Shown in pieces: positions 5,862-53,158 of a stretch of 64,000 nucleotides of DNA. Below the pieces are notes generated by a model that ran no database searches, had not been told where the DNA came from, and worked only from the letters and a program-made list of their open reading frames with translations. Every line of letters starts with the position of its first letter. Position 1 is the first letter of the stretch. The stretch is from Nocardioides mesophilus (GTDB taxonomy: Bacteria; Actinomycetota; Actinomycetes; Propionibacteriales; Nocardioidaceae). A program made the position numbers and the translations under genes. The stretch covers positions 2,818,501-2,882,500 of the forward strand of contig NZ_CP060713.1 in NCBI RefSeq assembly GCF_014395785.1, in the 5' to 3' direction.

Positions 5862-6515
5862 TCAGACGAGCGCCTCGCCGCCATCGGCGGCCAGCGCCGC
5901 GGCCACCTGCGCCTCGTGCCGGCGCAGCAGCGCCGGGTCGGTCGGCGGCAGCAGGTCGTCCCAGAACGCGAGCATGGCTCCGCGGCCCTGCATCATGCCC
6001 AGCGGCCGGGCGTAGAAGTGCAGGTGGAAGTGGGCCGACCCGTCGCCCCAGCGGCCCATGTGGGTGCGGGCCACCCCGTCGAGCCCCTGGATGGCGCCGG
6101 AGAGCCGCTGGATCATCGGACCGAGCGCGGCGAGCGTCTGCCCGTCCAGCTCGTGCAGCAGCAGATGGTCGTTAGGGGCGAGGCCGGCCCAGAACGGCAG
6201 CCCGGTCGACGGCGGCGCCGCGACGTGCCAGTGCTCGTCCTTCCAGAGCCACCGGCCCCAGTCCGTGGGCCGGCAGTGACCGCACTCGGCCGGGTCCAGC
6301 TCACCGTGCCGCGGGCGCTCGGGGACCAGCATCGGTTCGACCGGCGCGCTGACCAGGCGGCCGTCGGACACCTCGAAGCCGAAGAACGGCGAGCCGGTCA
6401 GCTCCTCCGCCGACAGCCGCTCGCCGACCGGTACGCCGGCGTGCCACGGGGACGTGGCCGGCTCGGTCTCGTAGCCGTCGGAGCCGCTGCTGGTGTCGGT
6501 GTCGTCGGTGCTCAT
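5862..6515 (-). CDS. HIT-like superfamily protein
   Basis: Cytosolic 217-residue protein with a HIT-type active-site string HFHLHFYARP (residues 162-171), which matches the His-x-His-x-His pattern of nucleotide hydrolases/transferases. A CGHC cluster at 78-81 may bind zinc, as in GalT/HIT relatives. Substrate unknown. The ATG is preceded on its strand by CAGACT and 7 bases, so it may be leaderless. The gene points away from the palindromic repeat array that starts 49 bases upstream of its start codon. Confidence 0.7.
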   Translation of the reverse strand: MSTDDTDTSSGSDGYETEPATSPWHAGVPVGERLSAEELTGSPFFGFEVSDGRLVSAPVEPMLVPERPRHGELDPAECGHCRPTDWGRWLWKDEHWHVAAPPSTGLPFWAGLAPNDHLLLHELDGQTLAALGPMIQRLSGAIQGLDGVARTHMGRWGDGSAHFHLHFYARPLGMMQGRGAMLAFWDDLLPPTDPALLRRHEAQVAAALAADGGEALV

Positions 6516-6563
6516 CCGGCGCAGTCTGCCACCCGGCGGACCCGCGGTGTCGGGTCAGCGGCA

Positions 6564-7035
6564 GCAACGAGCGCGCACGGTGACTGCTAGTTGCTGGTAA
6601 ACGGGGATGTGGTGCGCAACGAGGGAGCACGGTGACCGCTGGTTGCCAGTAAACGGGGGGGCGGGGCGCAACGAGGGTGCACGGGGAGCGCTGGTCGCGG
6701 TCGGCGAGGGAGCCGGGGGCGTGGGCAGCAACGAGCGCGCACGGTGTCCGCTGGTTGCTGGCGAACGGGGGTGCGGGGAGCAACGAGCGCGCACGGTGAC
6801 CGCTGGTTGCGGTGCGCGAGGGAGGCGGGGGCGTCGGCAGCAACGAGCGCGCACGGTGACCGCTGGTTGCCAGTAAACGGGGGTGTGGGGCGCAACGAGG
6901 GCGCACGGTGACCGCTGGTTGCTGGTCCGCGAGGGAGGCGGGGGAGTCGGCAGCAACGAGGGCGCACGGTGACCGCTGGTTGCTGGTAGACGGGGGTGCG
7001 GGGCGCAACGAGCGCGCACGGTGACCGCTGGTTGC
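6564..7035. repeat. Array of nine 31-bp palindromic repeats
   Basis: Nine 31-bp copies start at 6564, 6616, 6668, 6728, 6780, 6840, 6892, 6953 and 7005. Each begins GCAACGAG and ends CGCTGGTTGC (copies 1 and 3 are worn). Each is an imperfect palindrome: GCAAC-n-AGCG-nn-CAC-n-GTG-nn-CGCT-n-GTTGC, 12 of 15 positions pairing. The copies are separated by two spacer types: 21 bases (after copies 1, 2, 4, 6, 8; core ACGGGGG) and 29-30 bases (after copies 3, 5, 7; core GCGAGGGAGGCGGGGG). From 6668 this makes a higher-order repeat of 112, 112 and 113 bp. The array fills the 544-bp gap between the HIT-like gene and the methyltransferase gene; I see no gene in it. Confidence 0.93.
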
Positions 7036-7059
7036 CGCCACCCCTCCACCGCCGGCAGG

Positions 7060-9296
<2,237 letters not shown>

Positions 9297-33091: not shown

Positions 33092-33345
33092 GCAGGTCTG
33101 GGGACAACCCAAGGATGTCCCGCCATGGCGGGGTAACAGCGGAGGCCGGGCCCGGGGAGACCCGAGGAGAGTCCCACGAGGGGGCGACAACGGGCGCCGG
33201 GCCCGGGGAGACCCGAGGAGAGTCCCACGAGGGGGCGACAACGGCGCCGGGTCAGGGTGACCCGAGGAAAGTCCCGCTAGCGGAGTGACGACGGGCCGGC
33301 TCGGGGACAACGAGGAACGTCCCGCGCGCGAACTACTCCTCGTTG
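33092..33345. repeat. Five ~50-bp tandem repeats upstream of the HNH gene
   Basis: Units begin near 33092 (worn), 33145, 33196, 33246 and 33295 (worn), with periods of 51, 50 and 49. The shared core is GGGGAGACCCGAGGAGAGTC (two central copies nearly identical). The last unit ends in an inverted repeat CAACGAGGA/TCCTCGTTG (33308-33316 and 33337-33345). The 492-bp gap 33047-33538 holds this array and a heptamer repeat; I see no gene in it. Confidence 0.85.
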
Positions 33346-52348: not shown

Positions 52349-53158
52349 ATGAAACCCAAAGCACTGTCGGTCGCGTGTGTCGCGACCATCGGCTTCCTGC
52401 TCGCGACCAACCCGGTGGTTGCCAATGCCGCTCGGACGATCACCGGCGCGGACATCAAGGACGGCACCGTCACCAGTGCCGACGTGAAGGACCACTCCCT
52501 GCGCGCCAAGGACTTCAGGAGAAGTCAGCTCCCCACCGGACCCCGGGGTGCGACCGGCGCGACCGGCCTGACCGGCGCCGTGGGTCCCGCCGGTTCCGAC
52601 GGGATCGACGGGATCGACGGGGCGACCGGGCCCAAGGGTGCCGACGGGGCGACCGGGCCTAAGGGTGCCGACGGGGCGACCGGGCCTAAGGGTGCCGACG
52701 GGGCGACCGGGCCTGCGGGTCCCGACGGGGCGACCGGGCCCGCGGGTGCCGACGGGGCGACCGGGCCTGCAGGCCCGACCGGAGCCGTGGTGGGCATCGA
52801 CGACTTCGGCGGAGGTTTCCCCTATCCCTCCGGTTCCCAGTTCAGCTGGATCGGCAGACCCGTTGACATCGATCTGACGGCGGCACAGAAGCTGGTCGGT
52901 GCGGTGGGGACCAAGTTCGCCTCCAACGTGGACGCCTCGATCGGTCTCTGCTTCGGCGATCGGTTCACTCCGATCAACCAGTTCGCGTCGCAACAGGTGC
53001 CCCCCGGCTACTCCGAGCAGTTCTACTTCCTGTCGGGGGTGAGCCAGCCGATGAGCGCCGGTCTCCACTCGGTGGGGGTGTGCGTGAACACCCCGGTCAT
53101 CTACGACTACCTGTCCAGCAGCCGCACCACCGGCTACTTCCAGGCCGTTCCCCAGTAG
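52349..53158 (+). CDS. Secreted collagen-like repeat protein
   Basis: A 269-residue protein with a signal peptide ([19 protein letters not shown] ... VANA, cleavage about residue 27), a short region [19 protein letters not shown] seen in many actinobacterial surface proteins, about 28 Gly-X-Y triplets (GATGPKGAD units, encoded by near-identical 27-bp repeats from about 52617 to 52770) and a C-terminal beta-rich domain. Likely a trimer on the cell surface or in spent medium. GAGGAG lies 6 bases before the ATG. Confidence 0.87.
52617..52770 (+). repeat. 27-bp tandem repeats encoding Gly-X-Y triplets
   Basis: Units such as GACGGGGCGACCGGGCC followed by TAAGGGTGCC recur about five times with few changes; repeat number variation keeps frame. 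Confidence 0.85.

Follow-up and report, generated by a model that had tools for sequence, protein, structure and literature searches.

Positions 6564-7035 of a 64,000-nt stretch of the Nocardioides mesophilus genome (the window, 2.8185-2.8825 Mb of a 4.49-Mb contig) are occupied by an array of nine imperfect 31-bp palindromes, which lies between a methyltransferase gene and a gene at 5862..6515, both on the minus strand. The nine palindromes described in the initial annotation of the window are real, and so is their intergenic position; what that annotation overlooked is a doublet unit of fixed pitch, the recurrence of this architecture across genera, and a likely partner, a nuclease gene that elsewhere in the genome lies between two arrays of the same family. 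The features of the locus are the following.

6564..6594, plus strand: palindrome copy 1, 52-bp pitch to copy 2
6616..6646, plus strand: palindrome copy 2, 52-bp pitch to copy 3
6668..6698, plus strand: palindrome copy 3, 9/15 pairs, the most degraded of the nine
6728..6758, plus strand: palindrome copy 4, forms a doublet with copy 5
6780..6810, plus strand: palindrome copy 5
6840..6870, plus strand: palindrome copy 6, forms a doublet with copy 7
6892..6922, plus strand: palindrome copy 7
6953..6983, plus strand: palindrome copy 8, forms a doublet with copy 9
7005..7035, plus strand: palindrome copy 9
6616..7035, plus strand: 112-bp higher-order repeat (Tandem Repeats Finder, period 112, 3.7 copies, score 656, 88% match)
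7060..7893, minus strand: upstream gene, methyltransferase (PF08241, E=1e-18), stop codon 25 bp before the array
5862..6515, minus strand: downstream gene, start 49 bp past the array, no Pfam match at 1e-5, presumably HIT-like

Pairing within the copies ranges from 9 to 12 of 15 positions, and the mismatch at positions 6/26 is indeed kept in most copies, as are those at 11/21 and 12/20. The spacers measure, in order, 21, 21, 29, 21, 29, 21, 30, and 21 bp, so that the strict alternation of 21 and 29-30 bp that had been described holds over most of the array and breaks down at its left end. The proposed 112-bp higher-order repeat was recovered and corresponds to one doublet plus a locus-specific linker, amplified in place; the suggested amplification of a two-repeat unit is supported. 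Open reading frames (ORFs) of 164-246 aa run across the array on the minus strand, but were judged to be chance frames because the periods of 112 and 52 are not multiples of 3, in agreement with the earlier view that no coding frame explains the array. Searching positions 6400-7200 with Rfam covariance models returned 0 matches at E<=1. In the congeners G001 and G002 the ortholog of the 5862..6515 gene adjoins eno, without the methyltransferase gene or the array.

A dispersed family of palindrome doublets

Allowing up to 3 mismatches, the palindrome pattern gave 33 + 46 matches in the genome versus 0 + 0 for a reversed control, and the family is therefore not a product of chance. Within the regions read, 50 copies are distributed over 10 loci (1.057, 1.081, 1.237, 1.4697, 1.4712, 1.497, 1.574, 1.587, 1.710, and 2.825 Mb, the last being the window array), to which a diverged doublet at 1.939 Mb adds an 11th locus; a weak doublet is also found at 3.239 Mb (E=0.015). 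All 11 loci were judged intergenic, and the dispersal to other loci that had been put forward for checking is borne out. Adjacent copies within arrays are separated by 49-52 bp in 27 of 40 steps, the other 13 steps (59-103 bp) being locus-specific linkers. The unit of the family is hence a doublet of two 31-bp palindromes about 51-52 bp apart, which in this genome stand in direct orientation.

Comparison of 22 doublets from 10 loci gave identities between loci of 84-87% for the palindromes, 46% for the spacers, 35-37% for the flanks, and 33% for shuffled spacers, suggesting that the doublet including its spacer has some common descent, with the palindromes far better kept. The closest spacers, at 1.057 and 1.470 Mb, agree at 17/20 positions; some single 31-mers are identical across loci, whole doublets never. 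Dyad symmetry as a conserved feature, which had been proposed at the outset, is supported, and no covariation of the paired positions was detected within the genome (palindromy 0.752 versus 0.760 permuted). Ten of the 11 loci fall in 20% of the chromosome (1.06-1.94 Mb), only the array of the window and the weak doublet at 3.239 Mb lying outside it. GC skew of 20-kb samples, looked at for a replication-linked role, revealed neither a clear origin nor a clear terminus.

Copies of a 32-bp tandem repeat surround the doublets at 1.573, 1.587, 1.709, 1.938, and 3.239 Mb (regions L046 4464-4970, L047 4659-5169, L048 4326-4697, L098 4468-4932, and L099 3713-4244). They are oppositely oriented across the doublet (GAGTCGGCGCATCTGCAG on the left, CTGCAGATGCGCCGACTC on the right), with a start-to-start gap over the doublet of 192-194 bp at 3/5 loci and just one left-side copy adjoining the doublet in L046, and they look like a second, composite palindromic element. 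Besides, the window also holds a 51-bp tandem unit (about 3 copies, 33145-33323) and a 27-bp tandem unit (5.7 copies, 52615-52768).

Doublets in related genomes and their placement

When relatives were searched, as the initial annotation had recommended, the 31-bp sequence was found in none of six congeners by DNA or pattern search, whereas the doublet geometry recurs with other cores. Among 341 genomes of the family, the sequence pattern occurs in N. mesophilus, G061, and G023 only, the last probably by chance, and a doublet covariance model, in which the pitch is imposed, matched in 3/245 genomes, N. mesophilus included. G061 carries three palindromes with a different core at a 51-bp pitch, 8 bp after a stop codon. 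A pattern built on a G001 palindrome, with no pitch imposed, was detected in 22/335 genomes versus 1 for the reversed control. The matches listed with their DNA read, part of those in G241 being left out, together with the G061 array served as 46 seeds, and a partner palindrome no more than 130 bp away (at least 17/26 identities, exceeding the local 99.9% null) was found for 33 of them: 24 at 50-53 bp, 5 at 100-104 bp, and the remaining four at 55, 64, 64, and 128 bp. These 33 seeds are spread over 14 genomes in four genera, Nocardioides being one; several of the 13 without a partner resemble, by eye, chance coding matches.

Doublet orientation is mixed among these genomes and the cores vary from genome to genome, GCANNTGC being kept in many but not in some (G054, G061). 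The partners, which had not been selected by pattern, covary between the paired positions across genomes (palindromy 0.648 versus 0.560 permuted, 0/5000), also with one partner taken per genome (0.639 versus 0.524, 1/5000). Judged from these comparisons, the doublet geometry recurs in the family with diverged sequences, while the sequence itself is near-private to N. mesophilus.

Other searches were less informative. An exact doublet-end pattern over the genome contigs gave 10 stretches, of which the seven examined resembled, by eye, tandem repeats, coding sequence, or unrelated hairpins, and no inference is drawn from it since the pitch was imposed; the same applies to three palindromes that follow a gene of Bifidobacterium cebidarum and have ATGCAAC/GTTGCAT-like arms (L091 2600-2800). 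A family-wide CAAC/GTTG doublet pattern matched in 10 other genomes of 341 versus 1 for the reversed control, and judged by their letters these matches seemed coding or accidental. An unbiased scan for palindrome pairs in G001 and G002 showed no pitch peak at two thresholds, which were either too strict or too noisy. The G001 gap orthologous to the 1.057-Mb locus contains a long inverted repeat that is unrelated, GACCGAGGGGTC...GACCCCTCGGTC (L188 ~5890-6010).

With regard to placement, the 11 N. mesophilus loci (the 10 plus 1.939 Mb), classed manually on the basis of ORFs, codon bias, and Pfam matches, comprise 9 between same-strand genes, 2 between convergent genes, and none between divergent genes; the nearest stop codon is 20-222 bp away, and the neighbouring genes are functionally unrelated. 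Of 33 loci in other genomes, 18 are convergent, 10 tandem, and none divergent, the other 5 having been dropped from the classes as they overlapped a called ORF. Compared with 60-600 bp gaps of three genomes, and on the assumptions of independent loci and of a crude gene caller based on codon-position G+C, divergent placement is lacking (0/39 classified loci, p 2.5e-5 to 6.7e-5), whereas convergent placement is over-represented outside N. mesophilus (p 5.6e-6 to 6.9e-5).

The AbiEi-nuclease gene and its flanking repeats

We were unable to find the RAYT-type transposase (REP-associated tyrosine transposase) that the initial annotation had envisaged as a partner: the PF01797 model had no match in the N. 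mesophilus genome, versus control matches in 5/14, and matched in 3/335 genomes of the family, none of them a doublet carrier by pattern or covariance-model searches. A RAYT-driven repetitive extragenic palindromic (REP) sequence is thereby ruled out for this genome. Situated between two doublet arrays at 1.470-1.471 Mb, 1.35 Mb from the window array, is instead a gene whose 333-aa product is predicted from its sequence to combine an AbiEi fold with a Vsr-like PD-(D/E)XK nuclease that has invariant D/E residues. Two neighbouring genes were scanned, one encoding a CNNM protein and the other without a Pfam match at 1e-5, and no AbiEii toxin was recognised among them. In G054 an AbiEi-nuclease gene is likewise enclosed by two doublets, and in G241 by a doublet on one side and a palindrome on the other; a doublet is found upstream of the gene in all four cases at doublet loci. 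In G001 the AbiEi-nuclease gene and its doublet lie between mazG and the presumed HIT-like gene (L143 / L225), hence on the opposite side of the very gene that borders the window array downstream.

Bracketing was quantified as the best 22-mer match between the 300 bp before and the 300 bp after a gene, with at least 20/22 counted as a pass. This was reached by 8/11 homologs versus 2/210 similar-sized control genes from three genomes (p=5.8e-11), and by 5/7 of the homologs whose discovery did not depend on doublets (three from Arthrobacter, two from Tsukamurella, one from Nonomuraea, and G002) versus the same controls (p=1.1e-7), while neighbouring genes in the same records passed in 0/7 cases. 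For three records lacking annotation the gene ends were placed by eye; two of these agree with the ORF to within 15 bp, and the Nonomuraea start is uncertain. The homologs that failed are those of G001, of G002 (17/22, with arrays visible all the same), and of Nonomuraea. G002, which has no doublet family, carries 22-bp arrays with a GACCCGGGTC-like core and oppositely oriented halves, behind a gene (L170 16060-16310) and around its AbiEi-nuclease homolog (L185 13230-13430, 14432-14530).

Compared by eye, different organisms have unrelated bracketing sequences. In 4/5 passing plasmid-record cases a clear hairpin is present on one side or both, in Tsukamurella plasmid 9 on neither. Three of these repeats are dispersed in their own hosts: in plasmid records, that of Arthrobacter StoSoilB13 was found in 10 places on two replicons, that of Arthrobacter ERGS1:01 in 8 places on one replicon, and that of Tsukamurella tyrosinosolvens in 20 places in eight records, numbers that may exceed the copy number by up to a factor of two, as a palindromic query can match both strands. 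Each had no match in any other organism among the plasmid records searched. In a search of a small set of flanks, 57 nt beside the 1.057-Mb doublet moreover proved 89.5% identical to the nuclease gene's 3' end, as expected if a gene-bearing copy was the ancestor of this locus. Among viral contigs the nuclease had 8 partial matches. Bracketing of the nuclease gene hints at a previously undescribed kind of selfish DNA element.

Comparison with known systems and interpretation

To the best of our knowledge, REP-type repeats have been tied to a single enzyme, RAYT, and RAYTs reportedly spread the REP doublets known as REPINs. The element described here resembles REPs, bacterial interspersed mosaic elements (BIMEs), and REPINs in being an extragenic palindrome dispersed over intergenic loci. 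PMC3116915 describes REPINs as doublets that share common spacings, have spacers of lower conservation, and form tandem clusters together with their flanks, which fits the arrays seen here, and REP repeats as occurring in DNA flanking the partner enzyme gene, which is a further likeness. The present element differs in having no RAYT (Y1 HUH), with an AbiEi-fold/Vsr-like nuclease as candidate partner; in a pitch of 51-52 bp, compared with commonest spacings of 71 and 110 in that paper; in doublets that are direct in N. mesophilus and mixed elsewhere; and in its Actinomycetota hosts. It is thus REP/REPIN-like on most of the features tested, yet without the defining RAYT, and for this reason we do not claim it as a member of the REP/REPIN group.

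At their own promoter, AbiEi proteins bind inverted repeats that occur in pairs, two 23-bp repeats lying 3 bp apart for AbiEi and pairs 13 bp apart for Rv2827c (PMC7319586), and this fits a doublet before the gene. Unlike these type IV antitoxins, the present protein appears fused to a nuclease, has no recognised AbiEii toxin in the two neighbours scanned, and has repeats that are also dispersed away from its gene. The protein differs from DUF559/MTES_1575 proteins and from Vsr-like homing endonucleases (I-Bth0305I) in its AbiEi-like part and in the dispersed palindromes that bracket its gene, and no intron or intein was seen. With palindromic repeats of about 30 bp and spacers of 20-30 bp the window array is reminiscent of CRISPR, but the degenerate repeats, the spacers related within and between loci, and the several short dispersed clusters rule out such an array.

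We favour, with a probability of roughly 0.6, a REP/REPIN-like element whose partner is the AbiEi-nuclease fusion and not a RAYT, the window array being an amplified cluster without the gene. The AbiEi part would most likely bind the paired palindromes, with the upstream doublet also serving as operator of the AbiEi-nuclease gene, and the nuclease part would nick or cut at the doublet. Doublets, gene-bearing or gene-less, would then be mobilised and copied to new 3'-end sites in a RAYT/REPIN-like manner, a process in which the 51-52-bp pitch may play a role, and unequal exchange may amplify a doublet with its flank into arrays such as that of the window.

It is rather unlikely that the palindromes are instead non-mobile operators or landing sites, regulatory or structural, of the AbiEi-nuclease in a defence or toxin-antitoxin-like system, or of another dimeric DNA-binding protein. 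Conserved symmetric positions with retained asymmetry and no covariation in N. mesophilus speak for such sites, as do a pitch that is fixed while the spacer varies and that would set two dimers on nearly one DNA face, the doublet upstream of the four genes, and the paired repeats bound by AbiEi (PMC7319586). The linker pitches of 59-103 bp are unphased, however, the sites lie behind genes of unrelated function and never between divergent promoters, and the two-sided bracketing and the gene remnant look element-like.

Selection of the palindromes as 3'-end RNA hairpins, that is, bidirectional terminators or mRNA stabilisers, is likewise improbable. The initial annotation had considered RNA hairpins, and doublets can fold as one long hairpin, strongly so for the 1.470-Mb doublet (z -4.4 and -5.2) and for G054 (z -11.1), G286 (-7.5), G328 (-5.6), and G029 (-3.5); 18/28 classified loci of other genomes are convergent, palindromy covaries across genomes, and one G328 copy is followed by six T. 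The one window doublet folded is, on the other hand, weak (z -1.4 and -2.0), no terminator-like site (a hairpin followed by a T-run) was found at the window array, and terminators require neither a fixed pitch nor a single genome-wide sequence; for want of covariation, simple hairpin selection within N. mesophilus is rejected. Neutral tandem and dispersed repeats arising by recombination with no dedicated protein make a poor explanation, for although the doublet plus linker is amplified locally and a second, unrelated repeat family shares some of the gaps, the pitch is kept across genera despite diverged sequences, the palindromes are much better kept than the spacers, placement is non-random, and one gene family is bracketed.

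Beyond the REP/REPIN-like element of N. mesophilus, we tentatively envisage, at somewhat less than even odds, a class of Actinomycetota mobile elements parallel to RAYT/REPIN, in which AbiEi-nuclease fusions would recognise genome-specific paired palindromes and spread them to the 3' ends of genes. Each lineage would have its own palindrome while the enzyme architecture, and in this family also the geometry, would be kept, with gene-less copies, the window array among them, forming the non-autonomous majority. A search of titles and the beginnings of abstracts in a partial open-access library returned no link of AbiEi, DUF559, or Vsr proteins to dispersed palindromes. If this reading is true, REP-like repeats arose more than once, hypothetical DUF559/AbiEi genes gain a candidate role, and the connection of DNA binding in toxin-antitoxin systems with genome parasites can be put to the test.
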